A stretch of 51,248 bases of DNA, from NCBI GenBank assembly GCA_017545165.1, contig JAFWQQ010000008.1, positions 1 through 51,248 on the forward strand, read 5' to 3'. The notes beneath the pieces were generated by a model. That model was not told where the DNA came from, searched no databases, and saw only the letters and a list, made by a program, of their open reading frames with translations. The DNA comes from Oscillospiraceae bacterium (GTDB lineage Bacteria > Bacillota > Clostridia > Oscillospirales > Oscillospiraceae). A program made the position numbers and the translations under genes. Shown here piece after piece: positions 18,814-35,452 of this stretch; the first letter of the stretch is position 1; each line of letters starts with the position of its first letter.

Positions 18814-18852
18814 GGAGGGTTACTCAAGTGGTCGAAGAGGCGTGACTCGAAA
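18814..18852 (+). pseudogene. 5' half of host tRNA-Ser(CGA), split by the island
   Basis: GGAGGGT (acceptor 5' strand), D-arm CTCAAGTGGTCGAAGAG, anticodon 5' strand CGTGA and loop CTCGAAA with anticodon CGA. Beyond 18852 nothing pairs: there is no 3' anticodon strand, variable arm or T-arm. The missing part is at 35279-35338, whose ACCCTCC fully complements GGAGGGT. Confidence 0.85.
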
Positions 18853-18858
18853 CCGAAC
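18845..18858. other. attL core and left core-type arm
   Basis: The core ACTCGAAA (18845-18852) is followed by CCGAAC (18853-18858). Joined to the right end, attP would read GTTCGG, 16 nt including the core, CCGAAC: an inverted repeat flanking the crossover, as expected for a tyrosine integrase. Confidence 0.7.
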
Positions 18859-18889
18859 GGTCATTTTGGAAGTCATTCCCGAAAATGTC

Positions 18890-18918
18890 TTGATTTTTCA
18901 AGGCTTTCACGGTATCAT
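18890..18918 (+). promoter_or_regulatory. Island-borne promoter for the replacement tRNA
   Basis: TTGATT (18890-18895), 17 bp, TATCAT (18913-18918). It lies inside the island, about 90 nt before the complete tRNA-Ser at 19007. Confidence 0.65.
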
Positions 18919-18939
18919 AGGAAAGCGATTTTGAGTCTT

Positions 18940-18960
18940 TTCTCTCCTGCTTTTCTCTCC
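18940..18960. repeat. Left arm-type direct repeats TTCTCTCC
   Basis: TTCTCTCC at 18940-18947 and 18953-18960, 13 bp apart. The same octamer is repeated at the right end of the island. Confidence 0.6.
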
Positions 18961-19006
18961 TTTTTCCAAGGTGCTTCGGAGCACACCGCCATTGCCAATC
19001 AAATAC

Positions 19007-19095
19007 GGAGCGGTATCGAAGTGGTCATAACGGGGCTGATTCGAAATCAGTTTGAGGGCAACCTCACGTGGGTTCGAATCCCACCCGCTCCGCCA
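19007..19095 (+). tRNA. Complete tRNA-Ser(CGA) carried by the island
   Basis: An 89-nt type II tRNA with encoded CCA. The acceptor is GGAGCGG/CCGCTCC. The anticodon stem GCTGA/TCAGT closes loop TTCGAAA (anticodon CGA, reading UCG). The long variable arm is TGAGG/CCTCA and the T-arm GTGGGTTCGAATCCCAC. Its sequence is clearly different from the host tRNA-Ser(CGA) that the island splits, yet the anticodon is the same. It has a promoter inside the island and a terminator directly after it. Confidence 0.93.
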
Positions 19096-19142
19096 AACGC
19101 CAGTTTTCATGCGGTTTTGTCGCTTGGAAGCTGGCGTTTTTT
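19096..19142 (+). terminator. Terminator of the replacement tRNA-Ser
   Basis: AACGCCAG pairs with CTGGCGTT across a 27-nt loop that can add pairs, followed by TTTT. It starts at the base after CCA. Confidence 0.75.
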
Positions 19143-19144
19143 GC

Positions 19145-19398
19145 TTATTGGATCGCGGTCAGCGCGCCTTTCAGGCCATTCACCATCGCGTCCGCAGAGG
19201 AAAGCTTGGAATTGTAGTCCAGATGGGCATATACGTTGGCTGTGGTCGAGAAGTCGCTGTGACCGAGCCACTCCTGGATCTGTTTCATCGGGACGCCGTT
19301 GGAGAGTAAAAGAGACGCGCAGCTATGCCGGAGATCGCGGAAACGAATATGCCGCAGGGTGTTCTTAGCAAGCAGCTTCGAAAATGCAGCGGTACATT
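19145..19398 (-). pseudogene. C-terminal remnant of a tyrosine integrase
   Basis: About 84 codons ending AMVNGLKGALTAIQ. Present are the RDLRHSCASLLL box, QEWLGHSDFSTT (catalytic His) and NVYAHLDY (catalytic Tyr). An in-frame TAA sits immediately upstream and the whole N-terminal part (arm-binding domain, first catalytic Arg) is absent; the next sequence belongs to another gene. It lies at the tRNA end of the island, where integrase genes normally are, so it is probably the decayed integrase of this element or of a relative. It cannot be active alone. Confidence 0.85.
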
Positions 19399-19439
19399 AA
19401 TCATTTTGAGGTCATATGGAACAATTTCGATAATTCATC

Positions 19440-20378
19440 TCATATTTCTCGGCCTTTCTGCTTCGACTTGATGGCTCTGCCCTCGGCGTCATAGTTTTTT
19501 GGGTCGGCGGCAGGCGTGTCCCAGCCAAAAATGGAACCCGCAGACATGGCCGCTTCCTGTTGCTTGCTGACGCCCAGCTTTCGATTGAGAAGATCGGCGA
19601 CCATCCGGGCACTCTCCGGGGTGCAGTCATCGTCAGTGACTAAATACCCGTCCTTCCCGCGCTGCAATGCGATGACGCTGCCGGTAGATTGCAGCACGGA
19701 GAAGCACTGCTCTGGGAGAGAGGATCGGATAGGAATGACGGTGGCTCCCGTCATTTTCATTCTTTCGGCAAATTCGCAGATATGATAGAGATTATCTCCG
19801 ATCTCCACATGATAGTCGTCGATATACCGGCATACATAATCGCGGGCTGCCTGCCCCTCGCGCATCATGCGGATGCTGTCGCCGTCGTCGATGCGGAACT
19901 TCTCGTTGTAGTCCGGGGTGATGAAGCGGATGCCCCGCGCGGCATGGGTCATGTGTCGATCCAACCAATCTCTCTTGAAGCAGTAGCAGTACAAGTTGTA
20001 TTCGCCCTGGTTTGGATTGAGCCGGAGCATGAAGGTGTAGGAAGGTGTATCCGCCCGGAAGCCAAATTCCCGATCATTTCCATAATTGCTTTCCGGATGG
20101 CTGAAGCAGAACTTGGCTAGGCAGCGGCGACTCTTTAAGATGCCGCCATACTGATCGTCAAAACGCAGGGCATTGATGACATCATCGAATTCGTCTTTGA
20201 AATCCTGCGTTTTCAGATCGTCCCGGTGACCTGTCCATGAGGAAAGGAAGGCCTCTCCGTCGCCGTCCAGATCGCCGCGAAGATGCCCAATGCATCCGGC
20301 CTGTCCCTCAATTTGACTGCTCTGGGAATAGCTGTACATCCGCTCCTGCGGCGTCATAGGTCTGATAGTAAGTTCCAT
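19440..20378 (-). CDS. ICE-associated protein of unknown function
   Basis: A 312-aa soluble protein starting MELTIRPMTPQERMYSYSQS. It resembles proteins I know only as hypothetical cargo of Clostridia conjugative elements. Visible blocks are QIEGQAGCIGHLRGDLDGDG, a long mixed region rich in Tyr/Cys (GEYNLYCYCFKRDWLDRHM), and a basic C-terminal tail (AIKSKQKGREI). There is no membrane segment or catalytic motif I can name. Its ATG overlaps the stop of the upstream gene (TAATG), so the two are coupled. Confidence 0.75.
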   Translation of the reverse strand: MELTIRPMTPQERMYSYSQSSQIEGQAGCIGHLRGDLDGDGEAFLSSWTGHRDDLKTQDFKDEFDDVINALRFDDQYGGILKSRRCLAKFCFSHPESNYGNDREFGFRADTPSYTFMLRLNPNQGEYNLYCYCFKRDWLDRHMTHAARGIRFITPDYNEKFRIDDGDSIRMMREGQAARDYVCRYIDDYHVEIGDNLYHICEFAERMKMTGATVIPIRSSLPEQCFSVLQSTGSVIALQRGKDGYLVTDDDCTPESARMVADLLNRKLGVSKQQEAAMSAGSIFGWDTPAADPKNYDAEGRAIKSKQKGREI

Positions 20379-21016
20379 TATCGTTCACGCTCCTTATTGG
20401 ATTTATTGTGTTTGTTCTGTAGCGCCGGCAAGAGATGCCGCTTGCGGAATGCCCAGTATTCCGGATGATTTCTCTGAACGCTTGCGTCGATCACGCTTTC
20501 ATATTTGCCCGGAGGATAATGCTCGTTGACGGGCGCCTGGTACAGCTTTCTGTCCATCAGTTCCCGGATGACCACCTGCGCGTCACAGTCTTCCTCAAAG
20601 CAGAAATAACTGCCGTCAGTAAAGCCGCATTTTATCGCGGCCCCGGAAAGCACATTGCCTGCGACGATTTGATGCACCATGATGCCGCCATGGCTTTCCG
20701 TGCCGACAGAGAAAACGCCGTCGCAAAGCGTGTGGCAGCTTTGTACTTTCCCCCAGGGGGAGTAGCCTGGTTCCATCACTTTCTTCGCATCCAGCACATC
20801 TTGGATCTCTGCAACCCTTTCTGCTGCGCGCGCCACCAAATCTTTCTGAGCACTAAACAGATTGCTGTGGTAATGCCCCCAGTAATAGTTGTCATTGGAA
20901 CATCTCCAGGTGACAAAATCATTGGGAATATGCTGGCTGACGCCAAGGGCAAATTCGGTATCTCCGACATGGACAGAGTCCGTGATGATATACCCGGCGT
21001 TCGTTCTTTGGCTCAT
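20378..21016 (-). CDS. ICE-associated DUF-type protein
   Basis: A 212-aa protein starting MSQRTNAGYIITDSVHVGDT, followed by FVTWRCSNDNYYWGHYHSNL and a helix (AQKDLVARAAERVAEIQDVL). I do not recognise a function; similar proteins sit beside the 312-aa gene in other elements. It begins one base after the TGA of the small upstream gene, and GAGGC lies before the ATG. A longer reading from GTG at 21112 would run inside the upstream gene and is unlikely. Confidence 0.72.
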   Translation of the reverse strand: MSQRTNAGYIITDSVHVGDTEFALGVSQHIPNDFVTWRCSNDNYYWGHYHSNLFSAQKDLVARAAERVAEIQDVLDAKKVMEPGYSPWGKVQSCHTLCDGVFSVGTESHGGIMVHQIVAGNVLSGAAIKCGFTDGSYFCFEEDCDAQVVIRELMDRKLYQAPVNEHYPPGKYESVIDASVQRNHPEYWAFRKRHLLPALQNKHNKSNKERER

Positions 21017-21017
21017 A

Positions 21018-21254
21018 TCAGCGAGCCTCCTTCTCTGCTTCCCGCAGCAGGGCAGCCACGGCTTTCCCCTTGCGGACAGTGTTCTTTTCGGACAGCACCT
21101 TGTTCTGCACACAGAGGACGGCCCGGATATTCGGCACCGTGATCCCCGGTATCTCCACCATTTCCTCCGGCGTCAACGTGAGTATCTGGATCGGGGAATA
21201 CCCAGCCTCCTCAAAGATGCGGAACAGGCGTTTTTCAAAGCGTTCACGCTTCAT
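21018..21254 (-). CDS. Small helix-hairpin-helix-like protein
   Basis: A 78-aa protein, MKRERFEKRLFRIFEEAG..., with the stretch LTPEEMVEIPGITVPNIRAV that resembles a helix-hairpin-helix DNA-binding motif (hydrophobic-x-x-I-P-G-I). The C-terminus is basic and helical. GAAAGGAG stands 9 nt before the ATG at 21254. It is first of a three-gene chain with the two ICE-associated genes downstream. Confidence 0.75.
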   Translation of the reverse strand: MKRERFEKRLFRIFEEAGYSPIQILTLTPEEMVEIPGITVPNIRAVLCVQNKVLSEKNTVRKGKAVAALLREAEKEAR

Positions 21255-21409
21255 ATTTGCATACACTCCTTTCACCTGTGATATGTATGATCGGCGCTCC
21301 TGCAGAAAAATGTGTAAATATATGTCTAATAGCCAAAGAAAAATGTGTTTAGTTGGCGTTGATAACATCAGAAAAATGTGATAAAGTATAGAAGACCTCT
21401 CGATGAAGG

Positions 21410-22714: not shown

Positions 22715-22715
22715 A

Positions 22716-22747
22716 AAGCCGCCCCTCAATGATGCGAGGGGCGGCTT
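22716..22747. terminator. Hairpin between the ATPase gene and the convergent surface-protein operon
   Basis: A perfect 12-bp stem, AAGCCGCCCCTC with GAGGGGCGGCTT, closes an 8-nt loop. It begins right after the ATPase stop codon. Few Ts follow on the plus strand; on the minus strand the tail is TTTTCAT. Confidence 0.75.
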
Positions 22748-22787
22748 CCTCACTCGGAAAAGGGCGGCCTTTCAGCGCCCCAGGGTC

Positions 22788-22880
22788 TTATTTGCGCTTA
22801 CTTGCCCTGATGTGCAGGAACACCAGGCCGCCGAGAATAAACACGGCCAGCGCGACGGAAATGATTGTTTTCGGTTCCAT
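22788..22880 (-). CDS. 30-aa single-span membrane peptide coupled to the surface-protein gene
   Basis: Encodes MEPKTIISVALAVFILGGLV followed by FLHIRASKRK: one hydrophobic helix with a basic tail, so probably anchored with the tail in the cytoplasm. Its ATG overlaps the TAA of the large surface-protein gene (TAATG), which supports real, coupled translation. Function unknown; it could assist export or anchoring of the large protein (inference). Confidence 0.65.
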   Translation of the reverse strand: MEPKTIISVALAVFILGGLVFLHIRASKRK

Positions 22881-25800
22881 TACTTCTTCTCCTTCCGTTT
22901 TTTCTTACATGCAAAGAAGCCGCAGACAGCAGCCCCGGCGAAGCCCACGCCCGTCAGCGAATACCAAAGGACAGGATTGCGGTCATCGCCGGTCTTGGGC
23001 GTGTCGCGCAGCTCGTTGTGCATTTCGATTTTGACCTCCGCGTCTGCACTGATGGTCACGATCTTATCCACGGCCAGCACATAGGCTGCGGAGGCGTTGT
23101 CGGACACCTCGGACACGCGGTAGTCGCCGCACCGCAGCCCCTCGATGAAGATTTCGCCCTTCTTGTCCGTGGTAAAGACCTTTTCATAGCCGTTCGGCCC
23201 GGTTACGCGGAAGGAGAAACCTTCGATCTTCTTGTCCGAGGAAGTCTTGAAGATTTTGAGAGCGCCGGTCTGCGGGTCGTTGATAAAGCAGCCTTTCCCG
23301 GCCTCGTTTTCCACGATCACGGTCTTGCCATGCTCCACGATCTCAAAGTAGTAGGCGTTTTCATCCAGGACAAAACCTGCCGGTGCTTTCGTCTCGCGCG
23401 TGAAGTAGCCGCCATAGGTGAGATCGCCCTGCTCATAGACACCCACGCTCACCTCCGGCATCGTTCCGAGCTTTTCATCGTCCTTATCCAGCTCCATATT
23501 GCCGTTGCTGTCGCGGTAGAGTTCAAACACAGCCCCGGTCAGCTTGTTTTCGGGGTAGTCCCGATCCACCTTGGTAAGCTGCACCGCGCCGCGGATCAGC
23601 GTGTTTTCCAACTCCAGTTCGATCACAGCGCCGTCCTTATCCATGTTGACCTCAAAGGTCTTGTCGGAGAGAACATAACCGGTGGGCGCGGAGATCTCAT
23701 GCACGATCCAGTTGCCATAGGGGACTTTGGCAAAAGAAAAGCCGCCGTCCTCGGCAGAGGTGGCGGTCAGAATGGCAGTGCCGGTGGTAAACTCGATTAT
23801 TTCTGGCTTGAACAGTCCGATGACTGCCCCGGCCAGCGGCGCGCCTGCATCGTCCTTTTTCAACCCGTGGACTTCACCGTACATCAGACGGTTTTCTATG
23901 CGCTTACCCTCATTGACCTTGATTTCCACCAGCGCAGTATCTTGCCCGGCGTAATCGAAGCTGATGGGATACTTGGTGTCGGGCAGGATATAGTGTTCAT
24001 CCGTGGACAGCTCTTTCAGATAGTAGCTGCCCAGCGGCAGGTTGGTCTTGATGGCGGCATAACCGTTGCTGTCAACGGAAACGATCTCCATGATGCCGTC
24101 CACGGGGATGGTGCTGCCATCGGCGGCGGTCAGTTCCTGCGCGGCATAGAGGCCAAAGGTGACGGCGCTGATCTCGCCGCACATGCCGATGCCAAACTTC
24201 TCGTCGGCAATCAGCACCTTGTTTAGTGTGACAGCGGCTTTCTGACGCTCGTTGTTGAAGCTGGCGGCTGTCTCGGTGATCTCCACCTCCTGCCCGGCAT
24301 AGATAAGTTCCACGGCTCGGACTTCGGTATTCAGCACCATGCCGTAGGGCGCTGTGACCTCGGTGATCTCATATTTGCCCAGGTACAGCGGCTGGCTGAC
24401 AGCTTCGCCGTCCTCGCCGGTGGTGATGGTATCCACCACGTCCCCGGCAGAATAGCGGAGGGTGCCGTCCAGCGTGACCACATCTTCGGCAGCGTGAATC
24501 TCATAGACCGCGCCGGGAAGCCCGCGCAGCTCATAGATCGGCTGGTAATAGCCCTTGGCGGTGACGGTGGCAAACACCTCGCCACTCTTGCTGATCTTGA
24601 TAACGCCTTTCTGCGCCGTGTTTTCCTTGGTGACTTCCACGACGGTGATCGCGTTTTCCTCGGTGGCGTCCTCGGCGGTCACATCGAAATACACGGGGTT
24701 GCTGTTCAGCACATAGCCATAGGGCGCGGATACCTCCACAAGCGAATAGCCCGTGCCGTACTCCAGCTTTTCGGGCGTAATCAAATAGCCCTCGTCGTTG
24801 GTATAGAAGGTGTCTATCACCGTCACTTCGGGATAGGTGAAGGTCTGCGTAATGAGCGATCCATCCGGGCGGTAAAGCTGGAAGCCAGCGCCCGCATAGG
24901 GGATGGGCTTGCCCGTCTCGGCGTCCACCTTGATGACCTTGATATAACTCTGGAACACGGCGTTATTGATGAGATAGCGGTAGGTGTGGCTATTCTCCGC
25001 AATATACACATCAAAGGCGGGCATCAGCTCCCGGCCATCCCAGCCGGATACCTGCTCCACGGTATAGATGCCATAGGGTAGGTCTTTACTCTGTGCAAAG
25101 CCGTTCTCGTCACAGGTGAGGAAGTCTTTCTCGCTCTCTTTGGCAGAGCCGTAATCCCCGGCAGCTTTCAGATAGATGGCAAAGGTTGCGCCTACCTCCG
25201 GCGTTTCGATCTGCGTCTCGCCGTCGTCGCAATGCTTGATGTTGGCGATGTTGCCCTTGATGATCTGCTCGGTCACGTCCAGAGAAACAGAGTTGTATTC
25301 CACGGTGAAGTTCCCGGCCTCCACTCCGACATGATGGATTGTGGTGTCCAGCAGATAGCCTTCGGACGGGGTAATCTCCCGGATCGACCAGTCATCGCCG
25401 CACACATAAGAGGCCGTCACAAACTGGCCGTTTTTGTCCGTGGTATAGGTGTCGATCAGCGTATCGCCCTGATACACACCGTAGACCGCCCCGGCCAGCG
25501 TCGCGTCGCCCTGCGCCGTGCCATTGCTGCTGTCGCTCTTGGTTACAGTAGCGTTCCACTTCTTCAGAATATTGGAAAAGCTCTTTTCGGTGACCTTGTT
25601 CCATTCGATAGCGGCTTTCTGGCTGGCAGGGACAACATATTTTACCGAAACGTCCACTTCCTCCAGCGTGTAGCCGGAGCCGATCAGCACATCCTTGAAA
25701 GATGCCTTGCCGGTGCTGTCCGTGACGGCGTATTCGTCCACGGCCAGGCTGGAGAGGGATGTCCCGTACAGGTGGAATTTGATCCCCTCCACCATCCCGT

Positions 25801-27016
25801 CCTCGGAAGTCTTGGTGACAGTCAGATCGCCGCGCTTGAGTACATTATTAAAGGTCACGGTGGTCGTGCGGCCTCCGATCACAGTCACGCGCTGCACATC
25901 CTGCGGCAGATAGCGGTCAAAGCTCTGCTCGGTCACGGTGTAGACGCCGGGGATTAGGCCGTCCACAAAGATGGTGCCATCTTCGGCGGTGGTGACAGTG
26001 CGCTCCATCTTCTCGCCGGAGATGGTGAAGCGGATACCAGCCACAACGCCGTCCTCCGAAGTCTTTTTCAGATCAAGGTTACCGGTGGGCGTCTCCACAT
26101 TCAGATAGGCGTACACGGGATCAGCGTTCTCCACGCCGGTCACAACATCCTGCAGGTTAGGATCACCATAGGCGATCAGTTTGGCGCTGGAGCTGACAGT
26201 GGGAATGTTGTTTCGGCTGGCTGTGATCGTCACCGTGCCGTCGAAGGGATCATCAGCAGAGAGGGTCAGCTTGTTCCCGGACTTGGAAACGGATACCTTG
26301 CTGTTGGAGCTGGAGAAATTAAATTCGGCCAGAACTCCGTTCGTATCCGTGAAGGTAAGGCTGTATGTTCCGTCCTTATACTCCAGATCCTGCGAGGCTA
26401 CGTCGGCAGAGCCTGACATAAAGCTGGGAATGACGCTGTGCCGCTGCATCCAGGCCACGATCTGATTGTAGTCGGCCAGTACGCCGGTGTTCGGCTGATT
26501 GCTGCCAAACTGAATGTCATAGATGGCGGTGCTGACCTGTTTATACGGCGGGGTGGATTCGCGGCAGCCGGTAACAAACTCCCACACAAGCTCGGCGGTG
26601 GCCACCCATTTCTCATCGTCGCTCCCGCTGAGGTTGCTCCAGTTGCCCTGATAACCGTACAGAAGCGCAAGGCCGATTGCCCTTTTTTGACCGGCTGAAA
26701 GAGCATCCCAGGCAGCAGAGGAGCTGCGGTACAGCGTGTCGTTCACCAGAAGATGGCGGCCCGGCTGGATACAGTAGGCGGTTTCTCCATCCACAAACAT
26801 CCTGGGCTTGGGATGGCCCGTGCCTCCGGCCAGATACCCGTCCACATCGGTTTCTCCGTTGTAAAGGATCATGTTGCCGTTGGAGTCGTAGCAGTAGTCG
26901 AATGTGATATTCCCGGCTTCCCCGGCAGCAAAAGCGGTGATTCCCGGAATAAAGGAAAATGCTGTGATCGCCGCCAGGACAAAAGCGGCGATCCGTTTGA
27001 AGATTTTGCTTTTCAT
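22880..27016 (-). CDS. Large cell-wall-anchored thioester/SpaA-repeat adhesin
   Basis: A 1378-aa surface protein with signal peptide 1-31 (ending TAFAAG). An N-terminal thioester-type domain carries YCIQPG (Cys82), the Cys of covalent host-binding bonds in this family. From about residue 310 there are many Cna-B/SpaA repeats, each with a GxY-x-(L/V)-x-E-type strand (GVYTVTEQS, GKYEITEVTAPYG, GSYYLKELS, GNWIVHEISAPTGY) that usually form Lys-Asn isopeptide bonds. It ends with the sortase-type signal TPKTGDD (~1339-1345), a hydrophobic span and KKKRKEKK; Thr replaces the usual Leu of LPxTG. Related proteins lie next to ParAB in Clostridia ICEs. Confidence 0.9.
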   Translation of the reverse strand: MKSKIFKRIAAFVLAAITAFSFIPGITAFAAGEAGNITFDYCYDSNGNMILYNGETDVDGYLAGGTGHPKPRMFVDGETAYCIQPGRHLLVNDTLYRSSSAAWDALSAGQKRAIGLALLYGYQGNWSNLSGSDDEKWVATAELVWEFVTGCRESTPPYKQVSTAIYDIQFGSNQPNTGVLADYNQIVAWMQRHSVIPSFMSGSADVASQDLEYKDGTYSLTFTDTNGVLAEFNFSSSNSKVSVSKSGNKLTLSADDPFDGTVTITASRNNIPTVSSSAKLIAYGDPNLQDVVTGVENADPVYAYLNVETPTGNLDLKKTSEDGVVAGIRFTISGEKMERTVTTAEDGTIFVDGLIPGVYTVTEQSFDRYLPQDVQRVTVIGGRTTTVTFNNVLKRGDLTVTKTSEDGMVEGIKFHLYGTSLSSLAVDEYAVTDSTGKASFKDVLIGSGYTLEEVDVSVKYVVPASQKAAIEWNKVTEKSFSNILKKWNATVTKSDSSNGTAQGDATLAGAVYGVYQGDTLIDTYTTDKNGQFVTASYVCGDDWSIREITPSEGYLLDTTIHHVGVEAGNFTVEYNSVSLDVTEQIIKGNIANIKHCDDGETQIETPEVGATFAIYLKAAGDYGSAKESEKDFLTCDENGFAQSKDLPYGIYTVEQVSGWDGRELMPAFDVYIAENSHTYRYLINNAVFQSYIKVIKVDAETGKPIPYAGAGFQLYRPDGSLITQTFTYPEVTVIDTFYTNDEGYLITPEKLEYGTGYSLVEVSAPYGYVLNSNPVYFDVTAEDATEENAITVVEVTKENTAQKGVIKISKSGEVFATVTAKGYYQPIYELRGLPGAVYEIHAAEDVVTLDGTLRYSAGDVVDTITTGEDGEAVSQPLYLGKYEITEVTAPYGMVLNTEVRAVELIYAGQEVEITETAASFNNERQKAAVTLNKVLIADEKFGIGMCGEISAVTFGLYAAQELTAADGSTIPVDGIMEIVSVDSNGYAAIKTNLPLGSYYLKELSTDEHYILPDTKYPISFDYAGQDTALVEIKVNEGKRIENRLMYGEVHGLKKDDAGAPLAGAVIGLFKPEIIEFTTGTAILTATSAEDGGFSFAKVPYGNWIVHEISAPTGYVLSDKTFEVNMDKDGAVIELELENTLIRGAVQLTKVDRDYPENKLTGAVFELYRDSNGNMELDKDDEKLGTMPEVSVGVYEQGDLTYGGYFTRETKAPAGFVLDENAYYFEIVEHGKTVIVENEAGKGCFINDPQTGALKIFKTSSDKKIEGFSFRVTGPNGYEKVFTTDKKGEIFIEGLRCGDYRVSEVSDNASAAYVLAVDKIVTISADAEVKIEMHNELRDTPKTGDDRNPVLWYSLTGVGFAGAAVCGFFACKKKRKEKK

Positions 27017-27065
27017 CTTTGACCTCCTGTTGGTTTGCTGGCTGAAATAATCAGCCGCAGAAATG

Positions 27066-27096
27066 AAAAAAGCTCCTGCCTTTTTTCGGTAGGAGC
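27066..27096 (-). terminator. Terminator between parB and the adhesin gene
   Basis: On the minus strand, GCTCCTACC, 7-nt loop, GGCAGGAGC (one G-U pair), then six Ts. Expression of the adhesin therefore needs read-through or its own promoter. Confidence 0.75.
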
Positions 27097-27211
27097 AAGG
27101 GGAACAGTCTCTTTTTCGGCTGGTACAGCTGGCTTGAGGGGGGTGAGGTGTGGAGAGGGGGAACAGCCGATTTCCCCGGCACAGTATATAGGCACACTAC
27201 CCCCTTGGCGG

Positions 27212-28150
27212 CTATCTTTCCATGCTGCGCTGGCGCTTGTAGTACATGTCCAGCGCCTTGACGATGGTATCCTCGATCTTCTGCGCGGGCGTCCCCGTGG
27301 GAAAATACTTGCTGATACGCTCTCTCGGCATACGAAACTGCTCCTTTTGGTTGGGCTTTTCCTCCTGCATGATGGACAAGATGACCTCCTCGGTCAGCTT
27401 GCCACTCTCGGAGAATTGGCGCATTTTGATGGTTTGGGCATGGGAGGGTGTGCAATCCTCCATCTCCATTATTTCATGGAGTATGGTCTGCTCGTTTTCA
27501 GGCAGGTAGGACAGCTCCACAGCGGGACGCATGGCGATCTTGTCCTCGTCCACCATGTCCAACAGCGGCGGGATTAGATAAGTGAGCCGGATATACCGTT
27601 GAATTTGCCTTGCACTATCTGGAGCATTATTCGCTAACTGCTCATCAGATCGTGTATCTCTCAACTTCGCGCCCACTGGGCGCAAAGTTTCGTCAAGGTC
27701 TGTTCTTTGACCTTGACGCCGCATGGCTTCCAGCTTCATCTTGTAGGCAAAGGCTTTCTCCGAGGGGAGGATGCTTTCACGCTGCAAGTTGCTGTCCACC
27801 ATGATAATGGTGGCCTCATCATCGGTCAGATCGCGCACCAGGCAGGGCATGGTGGGTTTCTGTGCCAGTTCGCAGCCCATCTTGCGCCGGTGGCCTGCTA
27901 CCATCTCATAGCCGCCGCCCTCCTTGGGGCGTACCATGCCCGGAACTAGAACACCATACTGCCGGATGCTGTCGGCCATTTCCATCATAGCCTCGTCCAT
28001 CTTCACCTTAAAGGGATGGTTGGGAAAGTCGCTGATCTCGTCCAGCGGTATGTCTACAACCGTTTCCCGCTTGGCTGCGTCCCGTTCCTCCTGTGTGGTA
28101 AAGAGGTCATCTACCGAGGTCAAAAGACTTGCCACGTTGCTTTTCCCCAA
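27212..28150 (-). CDS. ParB-family partition protein
   Basis: A 312-aa protein. The ParB/Srx-type N-terminal nuclease-like domain (about 30-135) contains VDIPLDEISDFPNHPFK, GVLVPGMVRPKEGGGYEMVA with GHRR, and NLQRESILPSEKAFAY. A helix-turn-helix region follows (residues ~175-230, ARQIQRYIRLTYLIPPLLD). It binds a centromere-like site and stimulates ParA in stable inheritance of plasmids and circularised ICEs. It overlaps the parA end by 44 nt, so both are one operon. Confidence 0.9.
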   Translation of the reverse strand: MGKSNVASLLTSVDDLFTTQEERDAAKRETVVDIPLDEISDFPNHPFKVKMDEAMMEMADSIRQYGVLVPGMVRPKEGGGYEMVAGHRRKMGCELAQKPTMPCLVRDLTDDEATIIMVDSNLQRESILPSEKAFAYKMKLEAMRRQGQRTDLDETLRPVGAKLRDTRSDEQLANNAPDSARQIQRYIRLTYLIPPLLDMVDEDKIAMRPAVELSYLPENEQTILHEIMEMEDCTPSHAQTIKMRQFSESGKLTEEVILSIMQEEKPNQKEQFRMPRERISKYFPTGTPAQKIEDTIVKALDMYYKRQRSMER

Positions 28151-28928
28151 AGCCCGTCACCTCCTTTATCAGTTCGCGGTAGGCATCCGCCGCCCGTCCT
28201 TTGGGGTCGTGCCGGAAAATGCTTTTGCCTGCGGTGCTGACTTCCGCCAGCCGCACCGTTGCGGGGATCACGGCCTCCATGACGGGCAGGCGCTTTCCGT
28301 AGTTCTCCTTGACCGACTTCACAATGTCTTTGCGGAAATTTGTCTCATTCGCCATCGTGAGAAACACGCCGCCGATCTTCAGCTTGGGATTGATCTGCCG
28401 CTTGATGCTCTGCACCGTGCCAATCAGCTCCGCCATGTCCTCAGCGGCAAGATAGTCCGCCTGCACGGGAATGAGAACATAGTCTGATGCGGACAGGGCG
28501 TTGATGACCAGCATACCGAGGGACGGGCGGCAATCCAGCAGCACATAGTCATAGTCCTTTTTTACGCTGTCCAGATACCGCTTCAAGACTGTCTCGCGGT
28601 TCATGGTGTTGACCAGCCCGATCTCTACCGCCGAAAGGGTGCGGTTTGCCGGGATGAAATCAAAGCCCTCTTCATGGTGCATGATCTCCGGGTGTTCCTT
28701 GCTGTCCTGTCCCGCCACAATGTCATTCATCACATTGCTGAGCGTCAAGGGCAGCTCATGGGGCTTGCGCTCGCCCAGCATCTTTGTGAGGTCGCCCTGC
28801 GGGTCAACATCCAGAAGCAAGACCTTGTTCCCATCCTGCGCCAGCCCTGCGCCGATGCAGTACACGCTGGTGCTTTTGCCGACGCCGCCCTTTTGGTTGG
28901 CAACGGCAATCACCTTTGTTTTCGCCAT
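28107..28928 (-). CDS. ParA-family partition ATPase
   Basis: A 273-aa Walker-type ATPase. The deviant Walker A is NQKGGVGKST near residues 11-20; Walker A' is LLLDVDPQGDLTKML; Walker B is YVLLDCRPSLGMLV. It works with ParB to segregate the element. GAAAGGAGGAAACC precedes the ATG at 28928. Retention of parAB on an element without visible transfer genes suggests a formerly mobile, possibly replicating circular form. Confidence 0.93.
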   Translation of the reverse strand: MAKTKVIAVANQKGGVGKSTSVYCIGAGLAQDGNKVLLLDVDPQGDLTKMLGERKPHELPLTLSNVMNDIVAGQDSKEHPEIMHHEEGFDFIPANRTLSAVEIGLVNTMNRETVLKRYLDSVKKDYDYVLLDCRPSLGMLVINALSASDYVLIPVQADYLAAEDMAELIGTVQSIKRQINPKLKIGGVFLTMANETNFRKDIVKSVKENYGKRLPVMEAVIPATVRLAEVSTAGKSIFRHDPKGRAADAYRELIKEVTGFGEKQRGKSFDLGR

Positions 28929-29020
28929 ATTGGTTTCCTCCTTTCGCAGATTTAGCCACCCACGGCGATGGTGGACGGCTATGTACCTCTATCGAAATTG
29001 TCGGTGATTATCATGGAAAC

Positions 29021-29049
29021 TAAAAACAGGCCGCGATACTGCGGCCTGT
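29021..29049 (-). terminator. Terminator of the membrane/metallopeptidase operon
   Basis: On the minus strand, ACAGGCCGC, 6-nt loop, GCGGCCTGT, then TTTTAG. It lies about 95 nt past the stop of the peptidase-like gene, separating it from parA. Confidence 0.85.
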
Positions 29050-29142
29050 AAAGGGAAGGTATGGCCAAAAGGTCACTGCCTCTGGCGAAAAACAAACGTA
29101 AGCAAGCTTTTTGAAATCCAATTCGTTATGATATTGGGCCTT

Positions 29143-31491
29143 TTATGTTTTTTGAAGTTTGCTCCGATATTCTTCGATGCGTTTTTGAAATTCATCGTAG
29201 TTCATGTTTGGTGAATTGACATTCTGAAACATATCCCGTAGTTCTATAGTGTCGGCAGGGGAAATGGATTCCTTCAGTATTTTTTTGCATTCTTTCAAAT
29301 AGCTACAAAGAGAGTAAACGGCTAAGAGAGGAAGTCGGCGTCCCTTCTTCGATTCTACTCCGGATGCAATGCCACGGGATAAGGTGAGCAACTCATCTTT
29401 CATCCTTAAGAAAACCAAGTTGTCCACTTGTTTTTGATTTGTAGGCAGACAGAGCAGAGAATCGAAGATTTCCGAGAGACTGCTGGGAGATAATTCATTG
29501 TCAGCATACAAAACGGCGTATATTCGTACACCCACCTGCTCATATGGCCTTTCGTCCGATTTTGAGGGGAGGGCGAAATCCTTTAACTGACCTAGAATAT
29601 AGTCTGAGGGTGAGAGCGAGAGAAGATGTAACATACATAGATCAGCAAAGCATTCCCGGAACAGGATAGATATATCTCGTAAGGCATTAGTAAACTTGTG
29701 CTCATTTGTCTGCTTCCCTTTGGCGAGAATCTCAGGGAGATATTTTAGCGGAGGATCATCGGGCTTGCGTTTCTTTTCATCGTATTTCTTAATCACTTCA
29801 ATAGTCGAAGACAGACTCTGCACAGATTCGCGGAAGTCATACAGCCAGCCCATGACTTCTGCGTTCATTTCCTCGATGGTTCTTTTTCCCTCTAGACGCT
29901 TCAATAATTCTGATGAGAGCGCCAAAATGACACTGTTGTGATTATAAGAAAAAATCTGATCGGCAAGAAGTGCAGCCGCCGCCATTGCATATTTCTTGGT
30001 ACGTATATCTCGTTTACGAAACGATTCCCCTATATAATGTGACATCTCATGGCAGAGGGTTTTTTGCATTTCAGGAGAATCATACAACATTTCGATAGGT
30101 ATTTTGATAAGAATCAGGCCTGGGAGATTGCCCATAGGAGAAAAGAGTTCTGATGCTAAGATTCTCTGATAAAAACCAGGGACTGGAAACAGGGCAATCT
30201 GGTGCTTACGTGTGTCCTCCTTTTGCAACAACAAAGCAACATGGTTTAAAAAAGCAAGTACATATTCCAACATAGCAATTGGGATATCAAAAACAGGAGG
30301 CCGGAGCTGTGGATACTGCGACAACTGACCTTCCGTCCGCATGACCTGTTCCATCACATTAGTCCAGCTTTCAATGAAAAGCTGAAAAGCAGTATGATCC
30401 GGCAGTGGCCCTTTCACCAACCGCAAGAGGAAGGCTCGTACGCCGGGGAGCATGAGATAGAAAAACTCATCAAGCATCGGCATTTGACTGAGGCGTAGCA
30501 GGCTGTAGCTAAGTTCTGAAATAGGACGAAGCCATGCGGGAGGGGAAGGTTCCTGCTGTTGTATCTGCACGACATCTCTACATAGGGACTCCAATTCAAG
30601 ATAATGCCGACTAAGGCTTTCATCCTGATGGAATTCAGGCCAGTCTCCGGTATCAACCGAGGCAATTCCCAACCTGGTCGTTATGGAGGAAAAAGCCTCA
30701 TCGAGCCGATTCTCCGCCGACCCTGTAAACCAGCGTCGAAAAAGGAAAAGGAGGGTGTTTACAGGTAAGTTTGGCCAACTCACTACAATATCATCGACTC
30801 CCGTTACAAAATGGGGCTGATCCTCTCCAAGCCCGCATTGCTGTTTGATCGCGTTTATCTCACCATTGGCCTTTGAGAATGATGAGACAGCGAAACGGAT
30901 GGTACATAGTGGGAGCCGCTCCTCTTCCGACACGACCTCATTGGTGCGCAAAAAAAGGTTATTGATGGCGCAATAGGTATAGATGCGCGCAATGCCTGGA
31001 TTTTTGCGTAGGGAGAGTGAGACACCAAGAAGGTGAGGAAGATTCTCTGACTTCCCGACTAGCACAGCGTCACAAAGCTCTATCGTGTGGAACAGCTGAA
31101 ATGTCTCGCATGTTGGGTCCAATTCTTTCAGCATCTGTAGAAGCTTGTCGTAAATCTCTCTGGCACCGGTAGTTTTTCCAAAGTGGATTCGTGAAACGAC
31201 AAGAAAACTCGTCCTCCTCTTCCAAAACATGTTGGCTCTATACTTCGCGATAAGGTAGAGCGGATGGAAATAATGTTCGCCACAGTCCATTTCAGCGAGT
31301 AGAGAATTTGACTTTTGAATTAACTTGAAAGGGTTAGCTTGCTCTTGACTGAGAGTACAAGTGTGGATTGCATCAAAGTGCCCAAGGGAGAACCAAGATT
31401 GACAGTCATTGCCAAAAGGCATTTTCAGTTCCGAAAATCCCTCCTTCTTCAGAGATGCCTTCTTCTCAAAAATAACAGCATAAAGTATCAT
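29143..31491 (-). CDS. Large HExxH metallopeptidase-like protein of unknown family
   Basis: A 782-aa soluble protein. LCHEMSHYIGE holds a zinc-binding HExxH (residues 481-485), and FRECFAD (E613, D617) is a plausible third-ligand helix as in gluzincins. The first ~250 residues look like three ~100-residue repeats, each with a strand motif ending in Asp plus hydrophobics: SLGHFDAIHTC (D40), TIELCDAVLVG (D141), VTGVDDIVVSW (D233/D234). Predicted beta-alpha-beta order suggests ferredoxin-like sensor domains (inference). No signal peptide or membrane span. Its ATG overlaps the membrane gene stop (ATGA). AT-rich. I recognise no named family. Confidence 0.8.
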   Translation of the reverse strand: MILYAVIFEKKASLKKEGFSELKMPFGNDCQSWFSLGHFDAIHTCTLSQEQANPFKLIQKSNSLLAEMDCGEHYFHPLYLIAKYRANMFWKRRTSFLVVSRIHFGKTTGAREIYDKLLQMLKELDPTCETFQLFHTIELCDAVLVGKSENLPHLLGVSLSLRKNPGIARIYTYCAINNLFLRTNEVVSEEERLPLCTIRFAVSSFSKANGEINAIKQQCGLGEDQPHFVTGVDDIVVSWPNLPVNTLLFLFRRWFTGSAENRLDEAFSSITTRLGIASVDTGDWPEFHQDESLSRHYLELESLCRDVVQIQQQEPSPPAWLRPISELSYSLLRLSQMPMLDEFFYLMLPGVRAFLLRLVKGPLPDHTAFQLFIESWTNVMEQVMRTEGQLSQYPQLRPPVFDIPIAMLEYVLAFLNHVALLLQKEDTRKHQIALFPVPGFYQRILASELFSPMGNLPGLILIKIPIEMLYDSPEMQKTLCHEMSHYIGESFRKRDIRTKKYAMAAAALLADQIFSYNHNSVILALSSELLKRLEGKRTIEEMNAEVMGWLYDFRESVQSLSSTIEVIKKYDEKKRKPDDPPLKYLPEILAKGKQTNEHKFTNALRDISILFRECFADLCMLHLLSLSPSDYILGQLKDFALPSKSDERPYEQVGVRIYAVLYADNELSPSSLSEIFDSLLCLPTNQKQVDNLVFLRMKDELLTLSRGIASGVESKKGRRLPLLAVYSLCSYLKECKKILKESISPADTIELRDMFQNVNSPNMNYDEFQKRIEEYRSKLQKT

Positions 31492-32861
31492 GTATTCAGT
31501 CCCACTTCCTGCTTCGATGTTTCCGGCGAAGCGGTTTTCAAACTCCCAGTAACCCGCGCATTAATCTGTTCCAAAGCAAAAACTGCCTTCTCTTCTCTAT
31601 TCGATACCCATGGTAGCGAGAGTTGTAGGAAAATCTTCCAGCAAACTTCTTCTTTTTTAGAAATTTTTCTTTGAAGAGGCATACCATCCAAGCGGTCTTT
31701 GTCAACAATCGAGATTCCTTGAAAAATACAGATAAACCACATGATTAGTAAGTAACCAGTTGTAATGTACGCAACGAGCTCTTCCTCCTTATCGTGGAGA
31801 TAGGAGTGAATCGTAATAGACAAGTCGTTATTGATGCGAGGAAGCAAGTCAGTCATACGGCTTTGATCATCTCCAGAAGAAGCTTTTAGAGTTTCCTCTG
31901 TCAGCCAGAGCACATAGGCTTGTCCCAGAGCGAGCAGAGCCTGACTTTTGATTTCAGAACTATTCTCAACCTCGGAATCCGACCATTTGGTATCTTGCGC
32001 AAGTCGGAAATCAAGAAAAACTTCTCTGAGTAGGATGTTTCGATCTCCTTGAGCACGATTTCGCAGCAGATGTTCCCAGCAACTCGTAAGGTGGATTATA
32101 AGGTTTTTGTATTCCTCGTCTGACATTTTATTGACATTGTTTGTCAGATGGCACAGCGCTTTCGCAAAACAGCACAGCAAGTCTCTGTAGCCTGGTGATT
32201 CCATCGATATTGCATCAATCAGACGGTACACGCTCTCCACTGCAGATTCCGCCCCGCTTTTCTTCCTAAAAGCCTCATCAATCTCAGCTTCCCAACAGCG
32301 CTGAACGAGGCGCCGTCTACAGACAGGGAAGAAAACTAAAAAGCTTAGAGCTCTCCAGAGCGGGATACTATATGTAGTAATTACAATTAGAGCCAAAACG
32401 GATCCCTCTCTGGAGCCGGAAATAGCTTGCCAGAGGCCAACAAGATAAGCGATTACATACACCAAAACAAACTGGTTGTAACGGGGATAAAGCAATTCAA
32501 GGAGTTCACTGTAGTAGAGTCCACTGTCCTCTTTCTGTAGAACACCGTAAAGCCAGCCGATCAGTAGGCTGCTGACCCCAATTACCTTTAGGATTTCCTT
32601 AATTCCCACCGCTGTTAACACTGAACAGGAAAAAGTATATAGAGATCCAAGGCACGAGACCTTTTGCGTCAGCCAGCATGCAATACTGAGTCGCTCCTCC
32701 GAAAACCGGATATAGCGAAAATAAAGGGAGCCGGCCAGCATGATGATTAGAAATACAAGCAGCCAGAATCGGAATGGGCACTTCCGTTGATTTGCATCAA
32801 TAATCATATCGACCTTTGTAGTTTTTTCCTTTTTACCGCCATAATCGCTGTTTATCTCCAT
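31488..32861 (-). CDS. Polytopic membrane protein, partner of the metallopeptidase-like protein
   Basis: A 457-aa protein. After a basic N-terminus (KKEKTTKVD) there are about four membrane segments: 32-48 (WLLVFLIIMLAGSLYF), ~92-108, 131-147 and 155-180. A large, mostly helical soluble region follows (190-360), then another hydrophobic stretch at 361-380 (ELVAYITTGYLLIMWFICIF). I recognise no domain. AAAAGGAGC stands 8 nt before the ATG at 32861. It is cotranscribed and translationally coupled with the metallopeptidase gene, so the two products probably act together at the membrane. Confidence 0.8.
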   Translation of the reverse strand: MEINSDYGGKKEKTTKVDMIIDANQRKCPFRFWLLVFLIIMLAGSLYFRYIRFSEERLSIACWLTQKVSCLGSLYTFSCSVLTAVGIKEILKVIGVSSLLIGWLYGVLQKEDSGLYYSELLELLYPRYNQFVLVYVIAYLVGLWQAISGSREGSVLALIVITTYSIPLWRALSFLVFFPVCRRRLVQRCWEAEIDEAFRKKSGAESAVESVYRLIDAISMESPGYRDLLCCFAKALCHLTNNVNKMSDEEYKNLIIHLTSCWEHLLRNRAQGDRNILLREVFLDFRLAQDTKWSDSEVENSSEIKSQALLALGQAYVLWLTEETLKASSGDDQSRMTDLLPRINNDLSITIHSYLHDKEEELVAYITTGYLLIMWFICIFQGISIVDKDRLDGMPLQRKISKKEEVCWKIFLQLSLPWVSNREEKAVFALEQINARVTGSLKTASPETSKQEVGLNT

Positions 32862-32882
32862 TTTTCGCTCCTTTTAGTGCAG

Positions 32883-32910
32883 AAAAAAAGGGCCGTTAAC
32901 TGGCCCTTTT
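32883..32910 (-). terminator. Terminator or attenuator immediately before the membrane/peptidase operon
   Basis: On the minus strand, AAAAGGGCC, 7-nt loop, GGCCCTTTT extending to seven Ts. The T tract ends only about 20 nt from the ATG at 32861, leaving no room for a separate promoter, so it lies inside the operon leader unless transcription is pure read-through. Confidence 0.8.
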
Positions 32911-33012
32911 CTTCATATCTATTCCGTGTGCGCCTCCGATAGCATTATTCGGGACTCACGCGGAAAAAGACCCCCTGAAAGATATCGGCTTTCGCGTAAT
33001 CTTTGTGGGTAT

Positions 33013-33321
33013 TTAATCATCATCTAAGGATGGAAAACGCATGGTAAGCCTGTCGTACTCATCAGGAGTAAAGGTTGAGAAGAGTTCATAATTAGCATAA
33101 TATGAATTCCTTGCAAAACTGTCTACATACGGTACACGTTCTACATTGTTGGAGATGGGCACAACAACAGACTTTGCGGTCTGGACAGACGCGAAGTCAG
33201 CCGGGACACCACGTAGAACGGAAGAAACGCTAATCAACAATACCCTCTCTTTCCTGTTGGAGAGCCAGCGTTTAGCCAAAGCTCCAAAAACCACAACAAT
33301 CCTTACACTGGCTGAATGCAT
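33013..33321 (-). CDS. Hypothetical protein, possibly the 3' part of a frameshifted gene
   Basis: A 102-aa frame whose second half looks protein-like (NNVERVPYVDSFARNSYYAN and FTPDEYDRLTMRFPSLDDD, acidic end). The ATG has no clear ribosome site. Directly upstream, in another frame, 33272-33454 encodes a hydrophobic segment (FMFLSSFFLLFLCTSSFLW) that overlaps it; joined by one frameshift near 33300 they would give a ~145-aa protein with one membrane span. I cannot tell a broken gene from chance. Confidence 0.4.
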   Translation of the reverse strand: MHSASVRIVVVFGALAKRWLSNRKERVLLISVSSVLRGVPADFASVQTAKSVVVPISNNVERVPYVDSFARNSYYANYELFSTFTPDEYDRLTMRFPSLDDD

Positions 33322-34178
33322 GCATCAAGCCACATGCATCCATAAACCAACCTATGTACAGTATCCATAAAAAGGAACTTGTACATAAGAATAGTAGAAA
33401 AAACGAGCTCAAAAACATGAAAATTGTTTCTATATAGCTCGTTTCAAGAAGCACCGCGACGCGGTTGCCTTTATGGTAGATATAATAAAACTATGGTTAC
33501 AAATTGTCAACTATTTTTTGGGATAATTTGTTTTCCTGAGTGCTACCTGAGTGTGGCACCCTGCCTGTGCGAGCGGCTATTGCGGTGCAGGATCGCTGCG
33601 TCCGTAGAGCACTCCATTGCCTCTGCCTTAAATAGTATACCCGGGATTTGCGGAATAATACCCCTGGCTCCACTGTCAAGTGTTTTCCCTGATGAAGGAT
33701 ATTTTGCGTTCCAAATTGTGCATTGCCTCTTACATAAGTATACTATATTATTTCAGAGGAAAGCTTATTCTGGATAATGCGGTAAACGATTTATAAGCAA
33801 AGAAGGAGGGCTTTATATCTGGACATTGAAATTCTTACAAGGCTTTCACGGGCCGTGGGGAAGGGTTTGAACAAACTGTTGGCCTCGGGCTTGGAAAATG
33901 GAAAGGGGCTTCCCGCACAATCCGTTTAAGGTCAGAGCCGTCATCGTGGTGCACAATCTATGGAAGTCCTGTGTTCTCGTAGCCTGCTACTACACCGTTC
34001 ATCACAGAACTGATTGTCAACGGCATTTCATGTAACTTTCGTTGCTAGACATTTCGGTTGCCACCGACTTTACCAAATTTGCAGCTCACGATGTTGACCG
34101 GCTATGTATGTGCATGAAAAAAGCCGCCTATTCCGAAGGGAATAAACGGCTGAATAATCCATATGTAATTATAATCTG
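33322..34178. other. Region without a convincing gene
   Basis: About 850 bp of mixed composition. Short frames on both strands lack ribosome sites and family resemblance. One possible remnant is at 33827-33930 on the plus strand: AAGGAGG, then a frame beginning DIEILTRLSRAVGKGLNKLL without an ATG. I read the stretch as decayed element sequence, but an unrecognised RNA cannot be ruled out. Confidence 0.4.
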
Positions 34179-34328
34179 TCATTTGGCGGCGATCTTTGCG
34201 ATCAGTTCATCCACGCAGTCCGTGTAGCGCCCTTCCTGTATCAAGCGGTTCTTCATGCGGATGAGGCTCCGCAGCACAAGCCGCGTTTCCTCGGCGTTGA
34301 GGGTGACGTAGTATCTTGGCTTTCTCAT
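34179..34328 (-). CDS. Small ICE-type protein of unknown function
   Basis: A 49-aa basic helical protein, MRKPRYYVTLNAEETRLVLR..., typical of small hypothetical genes next to excision genes in Clostridia elements. GAAGGGAG precedes ATG 34328 at 8 nt. The content (strand YYVTL, then a long helix LVLRSLIRMKNRLI) could be a mini ribbon-helix-helix-like protein, but that is a guess. Confidence 0.65.
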   Translation of the reverse strand: MRKPRYYVTLNAEETRLVLRSLIRMKNRLIQEGRYTDCVDELIAKIAAK

Positions 34329-34375
34329 ATAACTCGCTCCCTTCGATTCCATAATACGCATTATTGGTTTTCTAT

Positions 34376-34954
34376 TCAAGGCTGCGTTTTCGCCTGCGCC
34401 CATATTCGTTTGTTCCGCTGAATATGTAAGTCTGATTTCACAGCAATCCCTATGTAGGCCCAACTCATAATGAAATCCAGTAAGTAGATTTTGGGGACAA
34501 GGTATTTCTGTTTGATAAAGAAATGCTGTAAATGCCCTTTAGTACACCATCGTTCAACAGAGGTTTTTCCGTACCCTGTGAAAGCGGACACTTGCTTTAT
34601 GGTCATAACATCCGGCCAAGATGCCAGTTCCTTTTCATAAAACTGCCTCATCACAAGCAAATCATGCTCGGACAACGCTCGCGCCTGCGGAATATGGGGC
34701 TGCTTGTAATAGCCCTCCGGCGGCTTGTAGTGTTCGGGGTGAAGTTCCCGATCCTCCAGATAATGTATTACATCGGTTGTCTTAATCTTGAAGCGCCGGG
34801 TTTTCTTCCCGCTGTCCAGGCAAGGGACGAGGCCACTTTTCAGAAGAAACAGGCAGGTCTTTTTGCTGATATGACAGACTCGGTACATCTGATCTTTTGT
34901 TATGTAGATGGGGTACTGCTCTAATATGTATTGATATTCGGTTGTTGCGTTCAT
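34376..34954 (-). CDS. Double helix-turn-helix protein (excisionase-like)
   Basis: A 192-aa protein with two HTH_17-type units. The first (about 17-65: YITKDQMYRVCHISKKTCLF, then SGKKTRRFKIKTTDVIHYLE) and the second (about 115-165: MTIKQVSAFTGYGKTSVERW) share the winged-helix pattern of MerR-like excisionases. Being the last gene before the right end it may steer excision or act as an element regulator. The second ATG (34954) is preferred because GAGAGGTG is then 6 nt upstream; the ATG at 34963 is too close. Confidence 0.75.
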   Translation of the reverse strand: MNATTEYQYILEQYPIYITKDQMYRVCHISKKTCLFLLKSGLVPCLDSGKKTRRFKIKTTDVIHYLEDRELHPEHYKPPEGYYKQPHIPQARALSEHDLLVMRQFYEKELASWPDVMTIKQVSAFTGYGKTSVERWCTKGHLQHFFIKQKYLVPKIYLLDFIMSWAYIGIAVKSDLHIQRNKRIWAQAKTQP

Positions 34955-35002
34955 GTCATACACCTCTCATCTTTTTTACCAACAGCAGAAGATCGGTGTT
35001 TT

Positions 35003-35098
35003 TTCTCTCCAACGTGATCATCAAATTGCCTGTTTTTGTTGAGAAACAAGGGCTTGCGTTCTCTCCTGATTTCTCTCCGTTCTCCCCAAATTCTCTCC
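35003..35098. repeat. Right arm-type direct repeats TTCTCTCC
   Basis: TTCTCTCC at 35003-35010, 35059-35066, 35071-35078, the variant TTCTCCCC at 35080-35087, and TTCTCTCC at 35091-35098. The octamer is shared with the left end (18940-18960), as expected for integrase arm-binding sites. Confidence 0.65.
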
Positions 35099-35263
35099 TT
35101 TTTCCGGTTTTGGAGGCTGTTTTTAGGGCTAAGGCGGTGAGTTCGAATTTTCCTTGACACCCTGCGGCTTTGCGGGTAAAATCCCCTTGAAACAAGCGGC
35201 TTTGAAGGTCCTCCGAGGCTTCCAATATGAGGCGCTATTTTCGCCCAATTTCCGCTAAAGTCT

Positions 35264-35285
35264 GTTCGGAGTACAACACTCGAAA
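35264..35285. other. attR core and right core-type arm
   Basis: GTTCGG (35264-35269) precedes the core ACTCGAAA (35278-35285). The arm is the reverse complement of CCGAAC at the left junction. Confidence 0.7.
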
Positions 35286-35338
35286 TCTCGTAGGCCGGTA
35301 ACTCCGGTGCTAGGGTTCAAATCCCTAACCCTCCGCCA
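35279..35338 (+). pseudogene. 3' half of host tRNA-Ser(CGA), split by the island
   Basis: Anticodon loop CTCGAAA, 3' anticodon strand TCTCG, variable arm GGCCGGTAACTCCGGTGC, T-arm TAGGGTTCAAATCCCTA, acceptor 3' strand ACCCTCC and GCCA. It joins to the 5' half at 18814-18852: the acceptor pairs perfectly, and the anticodon stem pairs with one T-T mismatch. Confidence 0.85.
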
Positions 35339-35381: not shown

Positions 35382-35382
35382 C

Positions 35383-35452
35383 AGTTATATTCGCCTGCGG
35401 CGAGTTATATTGCTTCGCAGTGATATTCGGCTTACGCCGAGTGATCTTGAAC
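35383..35452. repeat. Tandem mini-hairpin repeat (GTTATATT / GTGATATT units)
   Basis: Three consecutive ~16-21-bp units of the form GT(T/G)ATATT plus a small hairpin: CGCCtgcGGCG, GCttcGC, CGGCttacGCCG. It sits between the tRNA terminator and the HIT gene. Confidence 0.65.

Follow-up and report, generated by a model that had tools for sequence, protein, structure and literature searches.

Elements of Clostridia that split tRNA-Ser genes in the anticodon loop and carry a complete tRNA-Ser of the same anticodon

Known tRNA-targeting elements and the locus considered here

In the Islander islands, as represented in the parts of their description drawn on here, the attachment site of the element (attP) contains a fragment of a transfer RNA (tRNA) gene that restores the gene cut by integration (PMC4383910), and the relevant portion of a review likewise has an intact tRNA reconstituted after integration (PMC8371274). 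The subject of this report is an island at positions 18814 to 35338 of a 51,248-nucleotide stretch of DNA, the whole of which is called the window (contig JAFWQQ010000008.1, assembly GCA_017545165.1, from an Oscillospiraceae bacterium). This island splits a resident tRNA-Ser(CGA) gene in the anticodon loop and carries a different, complete tRNA-Ser(CGA), and it is very probably a decayed member of a class of anticodon-loop elements that use a tyrosine integrase and bring a replacement tRNA-Ser with them.

Several described systems share some of these features. The anticodon-loop subclass of Islander islands, in the same parts of that description, has a tyrosine integrase, a crossover in the anticodon loop, an integrase gene near the attachment site, and the possibility of tandem arrays, as do the elements described here; Islander attP sites hold a tRNA fragment, whereas attP here holds the loop only and is accompanied by a whole matching tRNA (PMC4383910). 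The nearest report found concerns a tRNA-Thr locus of Caldiarchaeum, in which, according to the portion of the paper used here, a recombinase separates a 5' fragment from a downstream complete tRNA with the same anticodon, at a mobile-element site; unlike the present case, it is a single archaeal locus and was explained as a restored gene with intron gain (PMC3293823). No description of elements carrying a whole matching tRNA was found in the open-access literature, as judged by titles and the beginnings of abstracts. Integrative and conjugative elements of Bacillota encode a coupling protein of a type IV secretion system and a MobL relaxase, as do two elements of the class described here, those of genome G106 and of Caproiciproducens; they differ in lacking a replacement tRNA of this kind, and neither a coupling protein nor a relaxase was found among the window island proteins scanned. 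In tycheposons, the complete tRNA is the restored attachment site itself, without a second, different gene, whereas the complete tRNA of the window island is a separate gene 154 base pairs (bp) inside the core. Tycheposons do resemble it in being tyrosine recombinase islands that begin at a complete tRNA, in the part of their description used here (PMC10872708).

The split gene and its empty site

The features on which the argument depends are the following.

18814..18852, plus strand: displaced 5' half of the resident tRNA-Ser(CGA), which joined with 35278-35338 is identical to the intact G032 gene at 92/92 bases
18845..18852, plus strand: left crossover core ACTCGAAA (attL), consisting of the anticodon loop and one further base
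18853..19006, plus strand: left arm between the core and the carried tRNA, aligning with the left arms of G026, G022 and G025
19007..19095, plus strand: complete carried tRNA-Ser(CGA) (ARAGORN; Rfam tRNA, 53.7 bits)
19145..19390, minus strand, convergent to the carried tRNA: C-terminal remnant of a tyrosine integrase, 81 residues (PF00589, E 1.6e-13)
35278/35279..35338, plus strand: right core and displaced 3' half of the resident tRNA-Ser(CGA), from comparison of the halves, the empty site and the cores

Islands that target tRNA genes are expected to split them at a defined position and to encode an integrase. Here, the empty site and the two halves place the cut in the anticodon loop, the 5' half stopping at 18852 and the 3' half starting with the same loop at 35279. 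The integrase remnant is 91% identical over its residues to the intact integrase of G026, and intact relatives are present in both G026 and G022.

An uninterrupted tRNA-Ser(CGA) in the congener G032 provides the reference for the halves, and whole genes are also found in G035 and G013 (95% and 88%, respectively, relative to the joined halves). Because the clpB and ribbon-helix-helix genes of the window lie upstream of the intact tRNA in all three (72-91% identity), the comparison is one with a true empty site. An earlier note on this DNA, made from the window alone, had read the two halves as one tRNA-Ser(CGA) cut in its anticodon loop, and had suggested that a T-T mismatch in the reassembled anticodon stem might be derived from the element. 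The first of these proposals is borne out by the relatives. The second fails for the window island, as the uninterrupted genes of G032, G035, and G013 contain the mismatch, which is therefore native to the target.

Identity between attL and attR is confined to the 8 bp of ACTCGAAA; outside this core, 6 of 50 bases agree downstream and 4 of 32 upstream. With just 8 bp in common, the left end rebuilds no tRNA, as the note had also maintained. In nine attL/attR pairs, cores range from 7 to 13 bp and identity to the tRNA beyond the core is at chance-like levels. As the sequences show, recombination by these elements takes place in the anticodon loop of tRNA-Ser genes, and attP has little beyond the 7-base loop in common with its target, so that insertion splits the gene and is unable to rebuild it.

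The carried tRNA, recognized as complete in the earlier note, is the only complete tRNA of the window, and its sequence is unlike that of the resident tRNA throughout its length. In the elements of this class, a complete tRNA-Ser with the anticodon of the cut gene and in the same orientation lies just inside the left end. In G026 and G022, the chromosomal site corresponding to that of the window contains, besides a 5' half, both a complete tRNA-Ser(CGA) and an integrase that is intact.

Occurrence of the arrangement

The note had proposed a search for the island tRNA beside other split tRNA-Ser genes. The arrangement is widespread. Among 394 genomes of the order, spanning 169 genera, 51 from 36 genera contain the unit of a 5' half and a downstream tRNA-Ser 5' part, as matched by a pattern of two tRNA-Ser 5' parts 168-198 bases apart; the reversed pattern, as a control, gave zero matches. 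As the pattern misses the window's own case, in which the 5' half has another D-arm, these counts are lower bounds. In a named collection, genome_contigs, at least 119 stretches, titled Clostridia or wider groups, contain the unit. Isolates among the matches listed include Oscillibacter ruminantium GH1, Marasmitruncus massiliensis, Lachnoanaerobaculum sp. OBRC5-5, Caproiciproducens galactitolivorans BS-1, Sinanaerobacter chloroacetimidivorans BAD-6, Clostridium sporosphaeroides DSM 1294, and Ruminococcus flavefaciens MA2007.

Parsing of clusters of 5' halves covered 80 of the at least 119 loci of the named collection, of which 72 gave clusters and 8 none, with only CGA- and UGA-type loops recognized, here and in the deduplicated step count below. 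A complete tRNA following one to three 5' halves ends, or lies within, 55 of the 72 clusters. The other 17 stop no more than about 110 bases short of the end of their stretch, with the exceptions of L216 and L224. The search expressions missed some tRNAs; reading by eye supplied the complete tRNA of L313 and one of the halves of the faecal record MT836101.

Matching of anticodons, integrity of stems and sole copies

Of 174 adjacent pairs, drawn from all 149 ladder loci (loci with tandem 5' halves) without removal of duplicates and with any loop type accepted, 167 allow the loops of both partners to be read, and in every one of the 167 the anticodons agree (120 CGA, 46 UGA, 1 GGA). When duplicates are removed, agreement is likewise complete, at 119/119 steps from 110 loci (91 CGA, 28 UGA). 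The single GGA-loop pair, at a ladder locus among L142-L290, suggests that tRNA-Ser(GGA) is used likewise. The first tRNA-Ser 5' part of a pair is without a readable loop in L180, L196, L200, L214, L234, L235, and L260, several of which continue into other sequence or a hairpin.

The left arms fall into 39 families, and for this reason the unit is not one element copied many times. In an integrase tree of 32 carriers and 7 others, CGA and UGA carriers are intermixed, the UGA label requiring 5 changes, at least 4 of them forced by well-supported branches; the tree gave long-branch warnings for L188 and L111, and 4 of 36 proteins (L149, L285, L306, and L229, the last resembling an integrase of another subfamily) had been removed from it beforehand by judgement. 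The integrases of G026 (CGA) and G025 (UGA), for example, are 73% identical and form a clade with one other (support 100/97), and each of these elements is inserted in, and carries, its own isoacceptor. Because CGA and UGA carriers are mixed in the tree while each keeps its own isoacceptor, target and carried tRNA change together.

Functional tRNAs are expected to maintain their stems through paired changes, and in the 48 distinct complete carried tRNAs pairing is standard at every one of the 816 positions of the acceptor, anticodon, and T stems; in a control in which the 3' sides were dealt anew, pairing averaged 77.6% and reached at most 80.9%. Each of the 18 unit-bearing genomes followed in this respect, which were picked for having the unit, gave a single complete tRNA-Ser(CGA), namely the carried gene (in G361 identified by eye). 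Applied to 14 of these genomes, a looser pattern yielded two more tRNA-like matches, both 3' halves. The genome of the window, G000, is 74.6% complete, and its 36 tRNA matches include no second tRNA-Ser(CGA), a gene whose presence, by the note, would have made the island copy irrelevant. The serine tRNAs found in it are CGA, GGA, and GCU; tRNA-Ser(UGA) is not among the 36 matches of this incomplete assembly. Next to a related integrase of the same genome is a tRNA-Leu(CAG), and no 5' half lies upstream of it.

The carried tRNA would, we infer, be expressed, either from a promoter of its own or from that of the cut gene, and take over decoding of the codon, so that insertion would be harmless, which is how the earlier note had understood it. 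The empty site, the recurrence of the arrangement, the agreement of anticodons, the intact stems, and the sole-copy status all argue for this reading. Alternatively, the carried tRNA might be passive cargo, or a mere landing site for later elements, without any rescue of the host. The ladders indicate that it does serve as a landing site, and tRNA-Ser(UGA) may read UCG; against this, the anticodons match in every readable pair, the stems are perfectly kept, and the carried gene is the sole complete copy found in 18/18 genomes, so that we consider the passive alternative unlikely.

Ladders and displaced halves

The carried tRNA of one element can serve as the target of the next: newer elements insert into it, with ladders of 5' halves and nested 3' halves as the result. 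On contig C4 of C. galactitolivorans, two successive 5' halves are followed by a complete tRNA with an integrase at 177 kilobases (kb); a 3' half at 114.7 kb is followed by an integrase, and another at 100.9 kb lacks one. Serial targeting of carried tRNAs predicts this order, with a 3' half directly before the outer integrase. C. sporosphaeroides has the same nested order, with an integrase fragment. Displaced halves still pair at 7/7 and 5/5 positions in G106, G144, and G302, where they are 67, 30, and 28 kb apart, respectively, and also in Sinanaerobacter, where they lie on two contigs.

In principle, a ladder could also be produced by duplicating a tRNA together with its arm locally, without serial insertion, and nearly the same arm is indeed repeated in a few ladders (e.g. 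L171, L197). The existence of 39 arm families, the frequent difference between neighboring rungs, and the nested 3' halves with integrases tens of kb away make this quite improbable as a general explanation, and serial insertion is preferred.

Other observations bear on the ladders and their ends. A decayed rung seems to be present in the left arm of G022 (L123, 6143-6463), in the form of an additional, truncated tRNA-Ser 5' half. In G006, inverted and direct extra tRNA 3' ends lie past the 3' half (L012, about 1560-1745), perhaps marking another attachment site. The TTCGAAA loop of the window was considered as a protection from further insertion, an idea weakened by 2 of 119 steps in which a tRNA with this loop has been cut.

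Travel of the tRNA with the element

Two faecal records, both labelled unverified, are informative about the mobile form. MT836946, an 8.2-kb human faecal contig, has genes related by tblastx to those for the ParB, ParA, and helix-turn-helix proteins of the window. From there it passes through the core CTCGAAA, which has no tRNA half beside it, to a left arm followed by a complete tRNA-Ser(CGA) and an integrase. This order marks an attP-type junction, whether derived from a circle or from tandem elements. In MT836101, two 5' halves precede a carried tRNA whose 43-base body equals that of the resident gene of the window, including the T-T mismatch, and the resident 5' parts at the one clpB site in the window's genus differ in kind (GGAGGGTTACTC, GGACAGGTATCG, GGAGGTGTATCG). 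Both observations point to a possible origin of the resident gene in an earlier element.

With their coupling protein and relaxase genes, at least two elements of the class are predicted to be conjugative. Among 10 proteins scanned from G144 and G302, type I restriction genes are represented in both and a reverse transcriptase domain in G144. Phages as the main carriers are not supported: the viral_contigs set contains one ladder and two integrase relatives without a tRNA. Matches were also obtained in 12 phage-collection records (E up to 1e-40) and four plasmid records (E up to 1e-60).

Evidence against the proposal and the remaining alternatives

A number of points weigh against the proposal that these elements replace the tRNA that they break. 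The integrase of the window island is itself truncated, for which reason the island is probably immobile now; in 7 of the 174 adjacent pairs, the loop is unreadable in one or both partners; the outer displaced pairs fit at just 6/7 positions in Caproiciproducens and, by eye, in C. sporosphaeroides; and the 3' half in G044 does not fit its 5' half. Replacement is perhaps not strictly needed if tRNA-Ser(UGA) might read UCG anyway. Lastly, by best consensus score, the 119 left arms score no higher for promoters than base-shuffled arms. The promoter that the note had placed at 18890-18918 can be found as a match to 9 of 12 consensus positions, and TTGATT-17-TATCAT recurs in the arm of L239 (read by eye), but 0.8 such sites are expected there by chance and a conserved promoter belonging to the carried tRNA is unsupported by the 119 arms. 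The terminator proposed at 19096-19142 stands as a strong hairpin and T run, although a simple terminator scan did not call it.

Two further alternatives fare worse than those above. An ordinary 3'-restoring island, in which attP would have rebuilt its target as the tRNA at 19007 and a duplication would account for the 5' half, would follow the rule for islands in tRNA genes (Islander, PMC4383910, in the parts cited above), but it is refuted by the empty site of G032, which matches the joined halves and not 19007-19095; the sequence past the left core agrees with the 3' half at only the 6 of 50 bases given above, and the resident and carried tRNAs are unlike over their whole length, leaving this explanation very little credence. 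That the halves are transcribed apart and then joined, as in some archaea, is scarcely credible, for although their acceptor stem still pairs at 7/7 positions, they are 16 kb apart in the window and up to 67 kb elsewhere, the sequence 5' of the 3' half varies between elements, some displaced halves fit imperfectly, and bacteria are not known to join tRNA halves.

Other contents of the window island

The remaining features of the island are listed below.

18890..18918, plus strand: putative promoter-like site TTGATT-17-TATCAT (one found)
18939..18960, plus strand: two TTTCTCTCC repeats, presumed arm-type integrase sites
19096..19142, plus strand: hairpin resembling an intrinsic terminator, downstream of the carried tRNA (-25.8 kcal/mol, z -6.1), with a T run behind it
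22880..27016, minus strand: cargo surface protein of 1378 residues with ten SpaA stretches and a thioester domain (Pfam)
27212..28928, minus strand: ParB-like and ParA-like genes
34376..34963, minus strand: helix-turn-helix protein near the right end (PF12728)
35002..35078, plus strand: right-end TTTCTCTCC repeats at 35002 and 35070, with variants nearby

Four of the five copies of TTTCTCTCC in the window lie at the island ends (0.68 expected in the window). The island also encodes an AAA_14/DUF4143 protein, and two adjacent large genes at 29143-32861 (782 and 457 residues) are without a Pfam match. Pfam identified no phage structural genes among 18 window proteins; no phage-structure search was made on whole elements. 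Just 3' of the displaced 3' half, at 35382-35452, is a Gut-1 RNA (RF01706, 53 bits against a gathering score of 50).

Implications

Mobile elements classically insert at tRNA genes, and by the accepted rule an element returns the piece of the gene that it displaces, whereas the widespread class described here breaks the gene and supplies a whole replacement of the same anticodon. The class explains tandem tRNA 5' halves and allows successive invasions at one site to be ordered. Island finders that rely on the restoration rule, searching for a complete tRNA together with its own fragment, can miss such elements. As several of the carriers are isolates, the idea is testable. A broader proposition, which we find about evenly balanced between belief and doubt, is that in many Clostridia the sole tRNA-Ser(CGA) gene, and perhaps tRNA-Ser(UGA) too, is mobile cargo. 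Each incoming element would then destroy the resident isoacceptor and install its own, ladders would record past invasions, and the host would depend on the element once the displaced halves have decayed. A core gene of translation would in this way become replaceable, and be serially replaced, by horizontal transfer.

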